From the NCBI RefSeq assembly GCF_004151455.1, contig NZ_PRLK01000005.1, forward strand, positions 1 through 57,693: 57,693 bases of DNA, written 5' to 3'. The translations under genes were made by a program, and so were the position numbers. This stretch comes from Candidatus Nanogingivalis gingivitcus. GTDB taxonomy: Bacteria > Patescibacteriota > Saccharimonadia > Saccharimonadales > Saccharimonadaceae. Of this stretch, positions 51,055 to 57,505 are shown piece by piece. The notes beneath the pieces are model-generated. The model did not search any database and was not told the DNA's origin. It saw only the letters and a list, made by a program, of their open reading frames with translations. Positions within the stretch are counted from its first letter, which is position 1. Every line of letters starts with the position of its first letter.

Positions 51055-52557
51055 TTATACTGATTTATATCTATACTGCAAAGCTTCACTAATATGTTGA
51101 TCTTTAATTTCTTCAGAATTATCTATATCTGCAATAGTGCGTGCCACTCGTATTATTTTTAAATAAGAACGAATCGATATATCTAATTTTTCTGTTGCAA
51201 ATTCGAGGAGCTCTTTTGCAGTAGGGGATATTTTAAAATTATTTTTAACATCGTTTAAGCTAGCATAACTATTGTAAAAAACACTACTTTTATATCTATT
51301 TTGTTGTAATAACTTAGCCGATTGTATAGAGTTGTATGCAGATAACTGCTCTTTATTTGAATATTGTTTTTTTGACAATAGTTTATTATTATCAATCCTA
51401 TTTACCTCTATTATTATATCTATACGATCTAATATTGGACCAGATATTTTTCGCTGATAGTTAGATATTTGGCTTGCACTACAAGTACATTCCTTATGTT
51501 TGTCGCCAAAAAAACCACAAGGGCAAGGATTCATAGTTGCTATTAGCATGAAATTGGCAGGGTAAGTTGCTTTTCGGTTTGACCTACTAATAGATATCTT
51601 TTTATCTTCTAACGGCTGTCTGAGAGAATCTATAGTATTTTTTTGAAATTCTGGGAGTTCATCTAGAAAAAGTATTCCATTATGAGCTAAGCTAACTTCA
51701 CCAGGCATAGCATTTGATCCACCACCAATTATGGAAATATTACTAGCAGTGTGATGTGGAGACCTGAAAGGTCTATTTATATTAACTGAGACATCTTCAA
51801 CTAGACTATGTATCTTTAATACTTCCATTTTTTCTGTAGGATTTAATTCCGGCAATAATCCTAGAGCAACTTTAGCTAACATTGTTTTACCAGTACCAGG
51901 AGGTCCAGTCATTAATATATTATGCCTACCTGCGATAGCGATAGTAAGGGCACGTTTAGCTTGTTCTTGATCTATTATGTCATCAAGAATAATTTTTTTA
52001 GTAATAGTATTTTTAATTTGATAATCCGTAGTGTTTGGTAGCTTAAGCTCTCCTTTTAAGTGAAGAAAAACATCCTTTAATGTTTTAGCTCCAACTATAT
52101 TAATACCGCTCAATAACTGGGCTTGTTTAGCATTATCTTCTGGAACTATAACTTCTTTTATTCCTATAGATTTAAGTTTTTCTATTATATTTAATATACC
52201 TCTAACTTTTCGTAATTTACCATCTAGTGATAATTCTCCAACAAAAGCTTTTCCTTTTATGTCTTGAGGTTTTACTGATCCATTAATAGATAAGATAGCT
52301 ATTGCTATAGGTAAATCAAATAAAGTTCCATCTTTTGGTATTTCTGCTGGAGCCAGATTTATAATTATTTTCTTTGCAGGAAAATCCAGGAGTGAGTTCT
52401 TTATTGCACTTCTAACTCTTTCTTTTGCTTCATCTATGGCTTTATTTCCCATTCCTACGATTTGGAGTCCTGGTATTCCTTTAGAATGGTCTACTTCCAC
52501 TTCTATTATTTCCGCTTCATAACCTAGTGGTGCGGCAGATAAGACTTTACATACCAT
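51055..52557 (-). CDS. comM: Mg-chelatase-like AAA+ ATPase ComM/YifB
   Basis: AAA+ protein of the YifB family; in naturally transformable bacteria ComM is a helicase that promotes branch migration during recombination of incoming DNA. The N-terminal YifB domain (AEIIEVEVDHSKGIPGLQIVGMGNKAIDEAKERVRSAIKNS, LAPAEIPKDGTLFDLPIAIAILS) is followed by Walker A MTGPPGTGKTMLAKVAL, Walker B HNGILFLDELPEF, sensor elements, and a C-terminal lid. A zinc-like motif CPCGFFGDKHKECTCS lies between (NPCPCGFFG...). At 500 residues the length is normal. Together with the type IV pili it suggests natural competence. TTAAAT lies six bases before the ATG (leaderless layout). Confidence 0.92.
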   Translation of the reverse strand: MVCKVLSAAPLGYEAEIIEVEVDHSKGIPGLQIVGMGNKAIDEAKERVRSAIKNSLLDFPAKKIIINLAPAEIPKDGTLFDLPIAIAILSINGSVKPQDIKGKAFVGELSLDGKLRKVRGILNIIEKLKSIGIKEVIVPEDNAKQAQLLSGINIVGAKTLKDVFLHLKGELKLPNTTDYQIKNTITKKIILDDIIDQEQAKRALTIAIAGRHNILMTGPPGTGKTMLAKVALGLLPELNPTEKMEVLKIHSLVEDVSVNINRPFRSPHHTASNISIIGGGSNAMPGEVSLAHNGILFLDELPEFQKNTIDSLRQPLEDKKISISRSNRKATYPANFMLIATMNPCPCGFFGDKHKECTCSASQISNYQRKISGPILDRIDIIIEVNRIDNNKLLSKKQYSNKEQLSAYNSIQSAKLLQQNRYKSSVFYNSYASLNDVKNNFKISPTAKELLEFATEKLDISIRSYLKIIRVARTIADIDNSEEIKDQHISEALQYRYKSV

Positions 52558-52616: not shown

Positions 52617-53000
52617 GGGGCTGATTTAGCTTTTGACAATAGGAATTTAATAAATTAATTAGCAAGTCGTTTACTACGTAAAAGTATTAAATATAATTGC
52701 AAAATCTAATTTTGTAGCTAAAGCCAAGGAATTCTTTGCAGTTCCTGCTTTCGCATTCGCTGCTTAATAATATAGCGATCGTTGTGTACGGGTAGGGCAG
52801 TAACTACTTTATACGGCGTCATATTTTTTACTGATCGCTACTACAAGAAGTAACGGTTGTAGTAGTTAAAATATAGTTACAATTTCTAGATTATTTTTGT
52901 TTCTTTTATAGATTTAGATCTTATTTTAAAAGAGAATAAACTTGTAGAAGATTAATTTATTACCTTTTGGACCCGAGGGCAGTTCTCGGCAGCTCCACCA
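52617..53000 (+). ncRNA. ssrA: tmRNA (ssrA)
   Basis: Transfer-messenger RNA, 384 nt, rescuing stalled ribosomes. The tRNA-like half closes with GGGGCTG at 52617 and CAGCTCC plus encoded A-CCA at 52990-53000; the T-arm is near the 3' end (GACCCGAGGGCAGTTCTCG). The tag-coding part starts at a probable GCA resume codon at 52699 and ends at TAA 52765-52767, followed by a second TAA. The tag has 22 residues, begins AKSNFVAKAKEF and ends VPAFAFAA. Pseudoknot stems follow, such as TACTTGTAGTAGTTA-type GTAGTAG repeats around 52845-52870. It is a one-piece tmRNA. Confidence 0.9.
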
Positions 53001-53326: not shown

Positions 53327-53355
53327 TTGACAAAAATGCTTATGTATGATATCAT
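53327..53355 (+). promoter_or_regulatory. Rightward promoter of the 53362 RNA/leader
   Basis: TTGACA (53327-53332), 17-bp spacer, TATCAT (53350-53355). The -35 is a perfect consensus, the best in this window. Predicted start near 53362. Confidence 0.75.
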
Positions 53356-53361
53356 TTAATT

Positions 53362-53764
53362 AGTTTTTGAAAAGAAACAAAAACAAAAAACAAAATTAAA
53401 AAGTACATTACAGAGAACATTATAATTATCGTTATTTTTGATCGTTTGAGCGGATCTTGAGTGGCGATTTGATATTGCAAGAGATTACTGAAAATGTCAT
53501 TGATTTTCTAGCTTTTGAATAATTGAATTGCCTGAAAGCTCCGCACTTATGCGTAGAGCGCGAGGAAAATATGTAATAAGTACTTGATATTTTCTAAAGA
53601 AAATATTTTAAGGAAATCCTCATGAAATATGCCCCTCTAAAAGAGGAGCGGTCAAGTAGCCTAAAAGGGCAGATCGTGAGCCACGAATAATAGTAAAGTT
53701 TTTAGTTTCGTTTGGTTATATTCACTAGTTTGCCCTTTGGGCTTAGTTTTAAATAGGTAGAATA
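53362..53764 (+). ncRNA. Putative large structured RNA or long leader (~400 nt), unassigned
   Basis: No frame of useful length is present, yet the segment is less AT-rich than neighbouring spacers and full of paired arms. The first ~50 nt are an A-rich tract. Helices seen: 53464-53478, 53490-53508 (GAAAAT/ATTTTC), 53538-53559 (GCTC-CGC with GCG-TA-GAGC), 53562-53566 with 53617-53621, 53587-53606 (8 bp, TAAA loop), 53631-53649, 53674-53686 (TCGTG/CACGA), and a 12-bp long-range helix 53658-53671 with 53731-53743. It ends six to seven bases before a possible Shine-Dalgarno (AGGTAG) for the 53765 gene and has no clear terminator, so it may be a leader or a stand-alone RNA. Confidence 0.6.
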
Positions 53765-54151
53765 ATGATTTCGAAAATATATTTAGTATTATCACTAATT
53801 GCTCTTTGCGGTATTATTGCAATAGTGAATTTATTTACACCTACGGATATTGGTCCATTAGGAATATTGGGTTTTTTTGTTCTGGTATATATTATGTCTG
53901 TAGGAATGGTTAACTTATTTTTATATGGAGTATATAGATTAATTTATATGCTAAAGTCTAATATATTCCAAAGTAAGGAGAGGAAAACGAATAATCATAA
54001 TATATCATATTTTTTGAAATATTCGTTAGTCATATCGTTTACTCCATTAGTATTGATAGCTCGTCAATCTTCTGGGGGTATTAACCTATTGGATATTTTT
54101 CTATTGCTCATAATAGAAATTATTGCTTTAGTTTACGTTTCAAAACGATAA
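53765..54151 (+). CDS. Four-helix membrane protein, unknown
   Basis: A 128-residue protein, not recognised. Four hydrophobic helices: IYLVLSLIALCGIIAIVNLF, IGPLGILGFFVLVYIMSVGMVNLFLYGVYR, ISYFLKYSLVISFTPLVLIA, and LLDIFLLLIIEIIALVYVS. The basic loops (KSNIFQSKERKTNNHN and the C-terminal KR) suggest a cytoplasmic C-terminus. It lies directly behind the structured ~400-nt RNA and may be its regulated gene. It stops 21 bases before the next gene, which has its own -10 box. It could belong with the VirD4-like ATPase downstream; that is inference. Confidence 0.6.
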   Translation: MISKIYLVLSLIALCGIIAIVNLFTPTDIGPLGILGFFVLVYIMSVGMVNLFLYGVYRLIYMLKSNIFQSKERKTNNHNISYFLKYSLVISFTPLVLIARQSSGGINLLDIFLLLIIEIIALVYVSKR

Positions 54152-54172: not shown

Positions 54173-54583
54173 ATGGAACCTAATAGGAACATAAACATTC
54201 CTCAAACATTTGAAGCAAACATAAAAAGTGTAGAAAGTCCACATGAAGTGGGCTCTTTTGCGTTAGAAACTAATATAAACAAGATAGATAAAAATGAAGC
54301 TAAAAGGGAAGTTGTAGATATAGCAAATAAGATTCTAGAGGCTAGCAACCCTCCAATGCCATTATCTCAAGAAAATATTATAACTCCTAACCCAGTGCAA
54401 ACAGCAAGCTCTCCTTCTGTAGCTAAAGATATTGACCTCATGGAAGATGCTTGGGTCAAGGATTTAAAGAAAATGATAGAAGAAACTAAAGGTGACCCCT
54501 ACGCCCGTGAAGTTAGGTTTAAGGAAATGCAAATAGATTATTTAAAGAAAAGGTATAATAGAATTATAAACGGTGGTAGATAA
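54173..54583 (+). CDS. Small soluble partner of the downstream ATPase, unknown
   Basis: A 136-residue protein without membrane helices, not recognised. The first ~90 residues look disordered (Asn/Ser/Pro-rich, NPPMPLSQENIITPNPVQTASSPS), and the last ~45 are helical and charged: DLMEDAWVKDLKKMIEETKGDPYAREVRFKEMQIDYLKKRYNRIINGG. The stop codon is followed directly by the ATG of the ATPase, so the two are co-translated and their products may interact. TGCTATAAT ends six bases before its ATG, an independent leaderless promoter for both genes. Confidence 0.6.
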   Translation: MEPNRNINIPQTFEANIKSVESPHEVGSFALETNINKIDKNEAKREVVDIANKILEASNPPMPLSQENIITPNPVQTASSPSVAKDIDLMEDAWVKDLKKMIEETKGDPYAREVRFKEMQIDYLKKRYNRIINGGR

Positions 54584-57505
54584 ATGGCTTTTTGGATAAT
54601 AATTTTTGCAAGTTTTGTTATAGTTTGTGTAGCTAGTTTTTTAATTTTCGAACAATATAAACGCATAGTTCGAGAAGCTAAGAACTATGAACGTGGATTA
54701 AAGATGGTTCCTATGAAAATACATCTTCCACCACCTACAGATGATATTGAAATTGGTGGAAGAGATAGCAGGGACGTAGTAGACGAAGCTTTAAGTGAAG
54801 CGCAAACTATGTATAATATTATATCCAGCACTGCTACTAAAGGTTTTAAAACACGGCTGTATGGACAAAGACATATATCTTTTGAAATAGTTGCTAGCAA
54901 TGGCTTGATACATTATTATGCTGTAGTACCTGCTGTTATAACCGAAACTGTCAAGCAAGCAATAGCTGCTGCATATCCTACTGCTAGATTAGAAGAAGTT
55001 GAGTTAGAAACAATTTTTAGTAAGCAAGGAAAAACGCAAGGTGTTATAGGTGGTGAGTTTGTATTAAAGAAAAATTTTTATTATCCCATTAATACTTATC
55101 AAGACAGTCGTCGTGATGCGATGAGATCTTTACTTGATGCGTTGAGTAGCGTTTCAAGGGGGGATGGTGCATCAATTCAAATAATGCTACGTCCTGCAGA
55201 TGATAAATGGACATCATTGTCTAATAAATATATAGAAAAAATTAGAAACGGTAAAGGCAAAAAAAACAACGCTGTAGCTCCAGCATTAGATATACTAGAA
55301 AGCCTCTGGAAACCACCAACATATGGTAATAATGCTACTGGTTCTAGTGATGTAAAAATTACTTCATTAGAGCAAGAAGAAATTGAAGCTATAGAAAATA
55401 AGATAAAGCATCCAGGATATGAAGTGCTTATAAGAACTGTTGTATCTTCTACTACAGCGTCAAAGAGTCAAGCTATTCTTCAAAGTATTGTATCGGCTTT
55501 TTCGCTTTTTGATTCACCACGATATAATGGGTTTAAATTTATTACTGCAAACGACATTGATGAATTGGTAACATCTTACATATTTAGATTCTTCCCTCAA
55601 ACGCTAACGGAAAATATATTAAATAGTGTAGAATTATCTACAATGTTTCATTTACCTAGTCGTAGTTCAATACCTACAGAAAAAGTTCAAAGGCAGAGAA
55701 TTAAACAAGTCGATGGCCCTACAGAACCAATGGAAGAGGGCTTGCTTGTGGGAGTTAACGAGTTTAGGGGCGTAGAAAAGCAAATAAGGTTAAGCACTAA
55801 TGACAGAAGGAGGCATACCTACATTATAGGTCAAACTGGTATGGGTAAGTCTAAACTATTAGAAAACCTTGCCTATCAAGATATAATGGACGGTAGAGGT
55901 TTTGCCTTTATAGACCCTCACGGTGATTCTGTAGAAGAATTAATTGGGATGATCCCTAAAGAGCGTCTTGATGATGTTATATATTTTAATCCAAGTGATA
56001 TGGATAACCCACTAGGATTTAATATTTTTGAAGCTAAGACGAACGAAGAGATGGATTTTGTTATTTCTGAAACTAATTCCATGCTTAAATCATTATATGA
56101 TCCAAATAATCAAGGCATTGTAGGTCCTAAAATGGAAAGTATAGTTCGTAATGCCGCTATATTATTAATGAGTGATCCTAATGGCGGTACTTTCATGGAC
56201 ATACCTAAGGTATTGGTTGATCCAGATTTTGCAATTTCTAAAATAAAGTATCTTAGGAATCAAAGAGCTATAGATTTTTGGACTAAGGAATGGCCAGCTT
56301 CTCAAAAATCGAGCGACGCAGGTGAAATAACTTCTTGGGTAGTATCCAAATGGGCACCTTTTGAAAGTGGACTTATAAACAATATTATTGGCCAAAAGAA
56401 TTCTGCTTTTAATATTAGAGAGGTGATGGATAATCAAAAGATCCTTTTAGTTAATTTATCTAAAGGTATGATGGGTGAGCAAGCAGCTAAACTATTAGGA
56501 ATGGTTTTTGTAATGAAGTTTCAGGCCGCAGCTATGAGTCGTGCTGATACCCCAGAAGATCAGCGAAAAGATTTTTGTTTATATGTTGACGAGTTCCAGA
56601 ACTTTGCCACAGATAGCTTTGAGTCCATACTATCTGAAGCACGTAAGTATAGGCTTAATTTAGTATTAGCTAACCAGTTTATGACTCAGCTAACAGATAG
56701 AATAAAAGGTGCTATTATCGGTAACGTCCCTACTAAGATAGTTGGACGTATAGGTATAGATGACGCTGAGAGTCTTCAACGCGCTTTTGTGCCTACGTTT
56801 ACTGCTGAAGACCTTACTAAATTGCCTAACTATCATGCCATAACAACAGTTTTGATTAACGGTATACCATCTGCACCATTTACTATGAGACTACTACCAC
56901 CTCTTGGTAAATCTAACCCTGAGTTACGTAATGCTCTGAAAAAATATTCTGCATCAAAATATGGTAGGCCAAAAGCTATAGTAGAAGCAGAGATTCGTGA
57001 TAGGTTATCTGTTAATAAAAATAAAGTACCAGCCCCATCAAATCCTCAATTTTCATATCAAGAGCCTAAACAAGTTAATTATGCTAATCCTATATTAAAT
57101 CAGGCTAATATTCCAGCAAAAAAATCAGAAAATATAGATAGTAATATGGTTCAAAGAAATAATAATTATAATAATTCTGCAAATAACGACCTAAGTGATA
57201 CCTCCGATAAAAAGAGCTTCTTGGACAATTGGGTAGATAAAAGAGAAAAAATGCGTTCTAATAGGATTGATAATGGACTAATAAAACAATCTGAAAGTAT
57301 AAAAAATAATGCATTAGTTATTAACAATATTAATAGCTCAAATAGCTCAGAGAAAGTGTTAGAAGAAAATCTAGAAAAAGATATAAGAAAACTAGTCAAT
57401 AATGCTACTAGCACAAATAATATAGCTATTGCAGGGTCAAAAATAAAAATTAATAATGCTGATAGTAAAGATAAAAATGAAGAAATAGTATTTAAAATAC
57501 GGTAG
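54584..57505 (+). CDS. VirD4/TraM-like type IV secretion ATPase, membrane-anchored
   Basis: A 973-residue P-loop ATPase of the conjugation-coupling (TraD/VirD4, DUF87/HerA-like) group. One N-terminal helix (FWIIIFASFVIVCVASFLIFEQY) anchors it. Residues ~35-380 form an extended N-domain. The ATPase has Walker A TYIIGQTGMGKSKLLENLAYQD (near residue 415), RGFAFIDPHGDSVEELIGMIP, Walker B DFCLYVDEFQNFATDSFESILSEARKYRLNLVLANQF (near 665), and an Arg/Gln-rich sensor. The last ~170 residues are disordered and Asn/Ser-rich. It could pump DNA or protein across the envelope, or act in division or pilus-linked DNA transfer. No relaxase or VirB4 set is seen nearby. Confidence 0.8.
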   Translation: MAFWIIIFASFVIVCVASFLIFEQYKRIVREAKNYERGLKMVPMKIHLPPPTDDIEIGGRDSRDVVDEALSEAQTMYNIISSTATKGFKTRLYGQRHISFEIVASNGLIHYYAVVPAVITETVKQAIAAAYPTARLEEVELETIFSKQGKTQGVIGGEFVLKKNFYYPINTYQDSRRDAMRSLLDALSSVSRGDGASIQIMLRPADDKWTSLSNKYIEKIRNGKGKKNNAVAPALDILESLWKPPTYGNNATGSSDVKITSLEQEEIEAIENKIKHPGYEVLIRTVVSSTTASKSQAILQSIVSAFSLFDSPRYNGFKFITANDIDELVTSYIFRFFPQTLTENILNSVELSTMFHLPSRSSIPTEKVQRQRIKQVDGPTEPMEEGLLVGVNEFRGVEKQIRLSTNDRRRHTYIIGQTGMGKSKLLENLAYQDIMDGRGFAFIDPHGDSVEELIGMIPKERLDDVIYFNPSDMDNPLGFNIFEAKTNEEMDFVISETNSMLKSLYDPNNQGIVGPKMESIVRNAAILLMSDPNGGTFMDIPKVLVDPDFAISKIKYLRNQRAIDFWTKEWPASQKSSDAGEITSWVVSKWAPFESGLINNIIGQKNSAFNIREVMDNQKILLVNLSKGMMGEQAAKLLGMVFVMKFQAAAMSRADTPEDQRKDFCLYVDEFQNFATDSFESILSEARKYRLNLVLANQFMTQLTDRIKGAIIGNVPTKIVGRIGIDDAESLQRAFVPTFTAEDLTKLPNYHAITTVLINGIPSAPFTMRLLPPLGKSNPELRNALKKYSASKYGRPKAIVEAEIRDRLSVNKNKVPAPSNPQFSYQEPKQVNYANPILNQANIPAKKSENIDSNMVQRNNNYNNSANNDLSDTSDKKSFLDNWVDKREKMRSNRIDNGLIKQSESIKNNALVINNINSSNSSEKVLEENLEKDIRKLVNNATSTNNIAIAGSKIKINNADSKDKNEEIVFKIR

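Follow-up and report, generated by a model that had tools for sequence, protein, structure and literature searches.

The window studied here (the whole stretch of DNA that was analysed, 57,693 nt) holds about 400 nt between a tmRNA and a membrane-protein gene that starts at 53765. A sequence-only reading took positions 53362-53764 for a large structured RNA behind a near-perfect promoter, and proposed that it is either a new RNA or a regulator of the protein at 53765, which we call mem128. The question is whether this interval specifies an RNA at all, how widely that RNA is conserved, and whether it is a gene in its own right or the leader of mem128.

Layout and fold of the RNA gene in the window

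The gene order in the window is YifB-like gene, tmRNA, RNA promoter, RNA interval, mem128, 136-aa ORF and ATPase, with the following coordinates for the genes and for the parts of the RNA.

51055-52557, minus strand: YifB-like gene
52617-53000: tmRNA (Rfam match, 90.8 bits; missed by ARAGORN)
53327-53355, plus strand: RNA promoter, TTGACA, 17 nt, TATCAT, with TG before the -10 element (11 of 12 consensus positions)
53362 to ~53743, plus strand: RNA gene, with a predicted transcription start at ~53362 placed from the -10 element
53363-53384, plus strand: putative 5' hairpin read from the sequence, GTTTTTG (53363-53369) with CAAAAAC (53378-53384), A-rich loop and A-rich 3' flank
53450-53544, plus strand: arm I, predicted from a six-sequence fold, outer helix 53450-53458/53536-53544 (one mismatch), inner helix 53463-53473/53522-53532
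53631-53649, plus strand: hairpin A (helix 1 of the alignments), GCCCCTCT/AGAGGAGC, with one C.A mismatch in the window
53648-53655, plus strand: conserved motif GCGGTCAA, in most relatives GAGCGGUCA[A/G] (alignments A4 and A6, regular-expression survey)
53659-53742, plus strand: long-range closing helix (helices 2 and 3), 53659-53662 and 53664-53673 with 53729-53738 and 53739-53742
53681-53715, plus strand: inner hairpin, CC (53681-53682)/GG (53714-53715), asymmetric internal loop, CGAA (53684-53687)/TTCG (53707-53710), conserved loop AATAGTAAAGTTTTTAG
53765-54151, plus strand: mem128, a membrane protein of 128 aa with four helices, which accompanies the RNA throughout the class
54173-54583, plus strand: protein of 136 aa encoded in the adjoining operon, promoter-like start TGCTATAAT-6-ATG, homologue in 80 of 99 loci
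54584-57505, plus strand: TraG/TrwB-like ATPase (973 aa), a neighbour in most lineages, not all

The promoter, which had been read as TTGACA-17-TATCAT, was borne out by comparison. Scanning up to 620 nt upstream of the core in 88 loci (99 loci minus 11 that were re-fetched or near-identical) recovered the pattern TTG[AC]NN-14-TGN-TANNNT in 81, where dinucleotide shuffles predict 0.7. From the predicted transcription start to the end of the core the RNA measures ~384 nt in the window, with a median of 401 nt and a range of 142-683 nt over 92 loci; compact forms (L023-L025, L028, L030, L033, L059) span 177-211 nt from the predicted start to the U-tract. The interval was also said to hold no useful reading frame, and indeed 53362-53764 contains no frame of ≥60 aa, and the only frames of ≥40 aa that overlap it ahead of the ORF at 53765 are two antisense frames of 42 and 44 aa. 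Near the 5' end of the RNA, frames of a few residues, most of them basic, were seen in L102, L111, L114, L115, L117, L118, L123, L124, L127, L130, L132, L134 and L135 (by eye, for example MKYK, MRKP, MNKFKT and MKTKWRKKTRKP), some of them after a Shine-Dalgarno-like AAAGG, and in L119 and L120 a 13-aa basic frame (MKRSRFSRSFRGS / MKRARFSRSFRGS) was seen by eye between the core and mem128.

The interval has a minimum free energy of -101.5 kcal/mol (z -3.82), and none of 100 shuffles was equally low. Its 5' end had been described as an A-rich single-stranded tract; the A-rich tract is there, but a small hairpin comes before it, so that the end is not purely single-stranded, and by eye a counterpart of this hairpin, AGCUUUU...AAAAGC, is present in many relatives.

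Covariation and distribution across the class

Comparative support covers five core helices and arm I. In alignment A4 (12 sequences of the 3' core), produced by MAFFT without structure and with its structure drawn by eye afterwards, 96.9% of the cells at paired positions were paired and 18 of the 27 pairs showed double-sided changes; the covariation score was 0.562 (0.233 when shuffled, ≤0.144 when slid), and there were 55 double-change cells against 16.0 shuffled and ≤13 slid. In alignment A6 (70 sequences) standard pairs filled 94.7% of pair cells, compared with 38-47% in slid controls, both sides had changed at 25 of the 27 pairs (12-16 when slid), and 435 double-change cells were counted against 112.4 shuffled and 40-71 slid. 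A6 was fitted to the structure of its model, so its pair counts lean towards that structure; A4 agrees nonetheless. Since compensatory changes exceed both the shuffled and the slid controls, the interval encodes a conserved structured RNA.

Helix by helix in the 70 sequences, hairpin A is 93.4% paired with double changes at 5 of 7 pairs, and the long-range closing helix is 97.8% (helix 2) and 92.6% (helix 3) paired with double-sided changes at all 14 of its pairs. The 12-bp long-range helix proposed from the letters alone is thus real and richly compensatory (53659-53673 with 53729-53742). Helices 4 and 5 of the inner hairpin are 94.1% and 98.9% paired, all 6 pairs carry double changes, and the hairpin belongs to the minimal core recovered in 19 diverse loci. 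The TCGTG/CACGA hairpin and GAATA/TATTC arm that had been drawn inside the closing helix are not conserved pairing, as the comparative pairs CGAA/TTCG and CC/GG exclude both. In the 5' domain, 16 of 67 predicted pairs carried double changes among six close relatives, arm I among them, and 19 of 42 pairs did so in the 16 sequences of group C. There the homologue of arm I is a 12-bp arm with 5 double-change pairs, including AU/UA and GC/CG switches, and none of the 16 departs from TTCTAGCCATAAATTACA, which extends from the helix end into the loop. These double changes indicate that the 5' part is also under structural constraint.

The RNA gene is conserved across a class that, to judge by its record labels, is the Saccharimonadia. 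The "class" and "phylum" genome sets were groups drawn around the genome of L003; many records are labelled Saccharibacteria, and a few RNA-bearing members of the class set are labelled Nomurabacteria or Parcubacteria (e.g. L031, L034). A scan of genome contigs with an ATPase alignment gave 66 loci, of which 30, together with the window, carry GCGGTCA marking a hairpin-bearing core ~870-1200 nt before the ATPase; nhmmer found a homologue running from promoter to ORF in L001-L004, L012, L019 and L065, and of the core only in L005 and L006. Covariance model R1 matched the core in 185 of 392 class genomes (E ≤ 0.1), and from these matches 70 loci were aligned (the 30 best and 40 chosen for lower scores). 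Model R2, built from that 70-sequence alignment and hence from R1 matches, found the RNA in 268 of 392 class genomes (E ≤ 0.01), with a single match per genome except in G109 and G232 (two each); because R2 missed some R1 matches (e.g. G175, G359), 268 is a lower bound. In the phylum sample R2 matched 26 of 379 genomes, every one of them in the class set. All covariance models were calibrated briefly, which makes the E-values rough, and searches over more than 40 genomes used stricter filters, at which weak matches are lost.

The 124 class genomes negative for R2 were sampled through mem128, which was present in 37 of 40 examined. Thirty-five of these 37 mem128 loci were fetched, the other two lying at contig edges; three of the 35 (L157-L159) came from the genomes of L029, L027 and L034 again. 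A 47-position model, R3, built from cores partly chosen by eye, located a co-oriented core ahead of mem128 in 27 of the 35, at gaps of 68-1048 nt; 11 of these 27 were seeds or re-fetched seeds and 16 were neither. The core was visible by eye in L158 and lay 1256 nt upstream of mem128 in G007, and no core was found near mem128 in 6 of the 35 loci. In G018, where the mem128 search was negative, an R3 core is followed ~21 nt on by a mem128-family ORF (E 1.7e-8, 4 hydrophobic segments). R3 gave no match in 26 ATPase loci of other Patescibacteria. In L186 and L190 it also hit its own hairpin on the opposite strand.

Known RNA families do not account for the interval. At the gathering score, Rfam 15 returned no match over the RNA in the window or in 8 further loci. 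At E 10, the segment 53010-53900 gave six matches, all under gathering, and the sole one inside the interval was antisense and to a human lncRNA family (18.5 bits against a gathering score of 60); at E 0.5, 15 more loci gave one match, under gathering and away from the RNA. OLE RNA has an Rfam family, as do raiA/ModT, ROOL and GOLLD. None of the titles listed by searches of open-access full text describes the RNA, which is weak evidence for its novelty. Distribution, covariation and the negative Rfam searches together give strong support to the proposal that this is a new RNA: it extends well beyond close relatives, is kept class-wide within the Candidate Phyla Radiation, and has no entry in the library of RNA families. 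In genomes this small, which have lost many things that other bacteria retain, an RNA that persists at a length of as much as several hundred nucleotides probably matters.

The RNA gene and its neighbours

Within the class the RNA keeps company with mem128. A mem128 homologue was found by tblastn in 88 of 99 loci, and in every one of the 99 the core is followed by an ORF of ≥100 aa that has 3-5 hydrophobic segments. All 99 also have the ATPase downstream and co-oriented. The 99 comprise the window, 28 loci selected through the ATPase and 70 selected through the RNA, and the argument rests on these last 70. YifB is divergent upstream in 66 of 99 loci, a count limited by the flanks retrieved. 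The window ATPase shares 97-99% identity with six of the 120 proteins listed as its matches and 68-76% with the others, among them proteins named Nanogingivalis and TM7, which places the window in a saccharibacterium. In L027, L029 and L034, mem128 lies ~5-6 kb from the ATPase and a divergent RNA, recognised by eye from promoter, core and terminator where R1 and R2 were negative, is still just upstream of mem128. Within the class loci examined, the RNA is thus found upstream of mem128 even where the ATPase operon is elsewhere.

The window mem128 has no Pfam or NCBIfam match. Its AlphaFold model (pLDDT 89) has four helices; no solved relative was found by sequence (E < 0.05) and no Foldseek match at E ≤ 0.001, and the fold matches of the model were uninformative. 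By eye, a lysine/arginine-rich loop and C-terminus are frequent in the family.

In the window itself neither a terminator nor a clear promoter separates the core from mem128, whose ORF begins ~22 nt past the core, so that read-through is possible there. Elsewhere, mem128 often appears to have a start signal of its own: TANNNT lies 4-8 nt before the start in 70 of 88 loci against 11.6% of background ATGs, a count favoured by the script's preference, where several in-frame starts existed, for an ATG with a -10-like element, and TGN is present as well in 49 of 88 against 1.85% of background, which is the arrangement of a leaderless-type promoter. A terminator stands between the core and mem128 in 9 of 88 loci and in 18 of the 27 R3 loci. 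Gaps between the RNA and mem128 reach ~1 kb with an intervening ORF; L170 has a 304-aa ORF on the opposite strand and L179 a 196-aa gene on the same strand between the two. In part of the lineages a separate mem128 promoter, a terminator or a gene thus comes between the two. As a general rule the RNA is therefore unlikely to be a plain leader; it is a noncoding gene in its own right. Co-transcription with mem128 is contradicted in L170, doubtful where a terminator intervenes, and possible in the window.

Outside the class set the association loosens. R3 matched 18 of 361 phylum genomes, of which G448, G680, G528 and G541 are absent from the class set, their position outside the class following from the sampling. 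In three of them (G448, G680 and G541; loci L220, L221 and L222) the core is followed by a T-rich terminator and preceded by A-rich stretches, and no mem128 was found within ~1.2 kb downstream of the core; two of these genomes carry a mem128-like gene on another contig and the third has none among the matches listed. We regard the three as probable relatives of the RNA. In G528 (L219) a guanylate-kinase-like gene and another gene lie between the core and a mem128-like gene. Conversely, 115 of the 361 Patescibacteria genomes sampled encode mem128-like proteins, and of 15 mem128-like loci read outside the class set, 13 showed no RNA by eye in the 500 nt upstream. In L205 and L209, also outside the class set, an RNA-like interval was seen by eye upstream of the mem128-like gene, with a C-rich hairpin loop CUCCCCCCAG, a ACCUUAGG motif and a terminator.

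Candidate roles and known RNAs

What such a gene does is a matter of weighing. That the conservation reflects a DNA or protein-coding feature would find some footing in the tiny frames near the 5' end of some group C loci, some after a Shine-Dalgarno-like sequence (by eye), but 25 of 27 pairs have changed on both sides, lengths vary all along the alignments, and the window interval lacks any frame of ≥60 aa; covariation in practice excludes it. In one form of the regulatory alternative the RNA would be the 5' UTR of the mem128 operon and, much as a large riboswitch or leader does, would control it through attenuation or by masking the start site. It would account for the upstream, co-oriented position in class loci and for the ~22-nt, terminator-free gap of the window, and the terminators of some lineages could be attenuators. 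We consider it unlikely given the leaderless-type -10 element before mem128 in most loci, terminators distinct from the core helices, ~1-kb gaps with ORFs between (L170, L179) and probable relatives that do not adjoin mem128; nor was a conserved switch between terminator and core helix noticed by eye. An RNA acting in trans, with unpaired conserved pieces pairing to mRNA Shine-Dalgarno sequences, is in our estimate also improbable. The pieces in question are an ACCUU-like element and the C-rich hairpin loops of L027/L029/L034, L205 and L209; in staphylococcal RNAIII, C-rich loops pair with mRNA Shine-Dalgarno sequences. All 16 group C sequences contain U[A/U]G[C/U]AC[C/A]UU; by eye, ACCUUAAC comes after the 5' hairpin in many loci, and GCACCUUAG is present in L221. 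Divergent forms have CUCCCCC loops. However, ACCUU itself is found in only 10 of the 16, the other 6 and the window having ACAUU, the compact forms of ~180-210 nt show no clear element of this kind by eye, and the strongest evidence concerns the paired core.

A housekeeping RNA too diverged for Rfam to recognise, such as SRP RNA or 6S RNA, would be class-wide and usually single-copy, as this RNA is, and neither small SRP RNA (RF00169; 11 of 14 controls) nor 6S RNA (RF00013) was found over the cut-off in 15 class genomes, although only 5 of 14 controls were positive for 6S, so that its absence says little. In G181 a weak 6S-like match (C1:821085-821237, 31.8 bits, under the cut-off) lies ~5.5 kb from that genome's RNA. 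The protein partners of SRP RNA are missing as well: neither the Ffh M-domain (PF02978) nor an SRP GTPase over the cut-off was found in 11 class genomes (G001, G002, G008, G047, G057, G078, G080, G117, G121, G131 and G181, to which the SRP RNA search added four more), each being present in 14 of 14 controls, and two weak GTPase matches in class genomes were other ATPases by eye. With no such protein to bind an SRP RNA, no SRP domain IV motif or 6S rod with bubble in the core by eye, and negative Rfam results even at relaxed thresholds, this explanation is a slim prospect.

The reading that we tentatively prefer, drawn by analogy to OLE RNA and OapA, is that the independent structured RNA may work as a membrane ribonucleoprotein (RNP) with mem128; the arguments fall somewhat short of making it probable. 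The RNA would fold into a 5' hairpin with an A-rich tract, a variable arm domain and the conserved core, mem128 would hold it at the membrane through its basic loop and C-terminus, and unpaired conserved segments (the AAUAGU loop, GGUCAR and the ACCUU-like element) would contact a further partner. Counting against this RNP are the often conserved presence of YifB on the other side, adjacency alone being no proof of binding, and the mem128-like genes outside the class set, mostly without an upstream RNA (13 of 15 loci). The uninformative fold matches of mem128, the 124 class genomes that R2 missed and the 6 of 35 loci without a core near mem128 also weigh on that side. If L220-L222 are true relatives, moreover, the RNA is free-standing there, its tie to mem128 is not general, and the RNP explanation is weakened. 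An extension in which the RNP would bring ribosomes or mRNAs to the membrane, as an RNA-containing targeting device of separate origin from SRP, is a very slim prospect. It would fit the missing SRP RNA and M-domain in the class genomes tested, a class-wide, usually single-copy RNA beside a small membrane protein, and the anti-Shine-Dalgarno-like unpaired segments of part of the sequences. These facts are not specific to it: all 17 other Patescibacteria genomes searched are likewise devoid of the M-domain, and outside the class set there are RNA-like genes with no mem128 beside them. The missing SRP parts therefore make an SRP substitute possible and do not strongly favour it. Loss of SRP is on record for Parcubacteria (PMC4508563), and PMC8080830 notes it for many CPR bacteria. 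Saccharibacteria are described as cultured and transformable (PMC10633639), which makes the role of the RNA directly testable.

Among known systems, raiA/ModT, ROOL and GOLLD are likewise ornate, lineage-restricted RNAs of unclear role, but the RNA matches none of them at gathering or at relaxed E-values. SRP RNA (4.5S) and 6S RNA share its class-wide, usually single-copy occurrence expected of a housekeeping RNA; they differ in that these families were not recognised here and that their signatures, the domain IV motif for SRP RNA and the rod with a bubble for 6S, are missing from the core by eye. A riboswitch or operon leader resembles it in lying upstream of, and co-oriented with, one gene family in the class, and differs from a gene that in many lineages has its own terminator and a separate promoter downstream, in some has genes intervening, and has probable relatives without a mem128 neighbour. 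The closest likeness is to OLE RNA with OapA in Bacillota. The gene most often found directly downstream of OLE RNA is oapA, whose four-TM product binds OLE RNA through a cluster of positive charges on the cytoplasmic side (PMC12265935); here too a structured noncoding RNA adjoins the gene of a four-TM protein, and mem128 holds the place of oapA. The likeness is one of analogy, not homology: the RNA does not match the OLE model, measures ~180-680 nt against ~600 nt for OLE and belongs to another phylum, mem128 has no informative structural relative and does not adjoin the RNA-like genes L220-L222, and its contact with the RNA is putative. A membrane RNP of this kind, if real, would add to OLE a second case that is independent of it.
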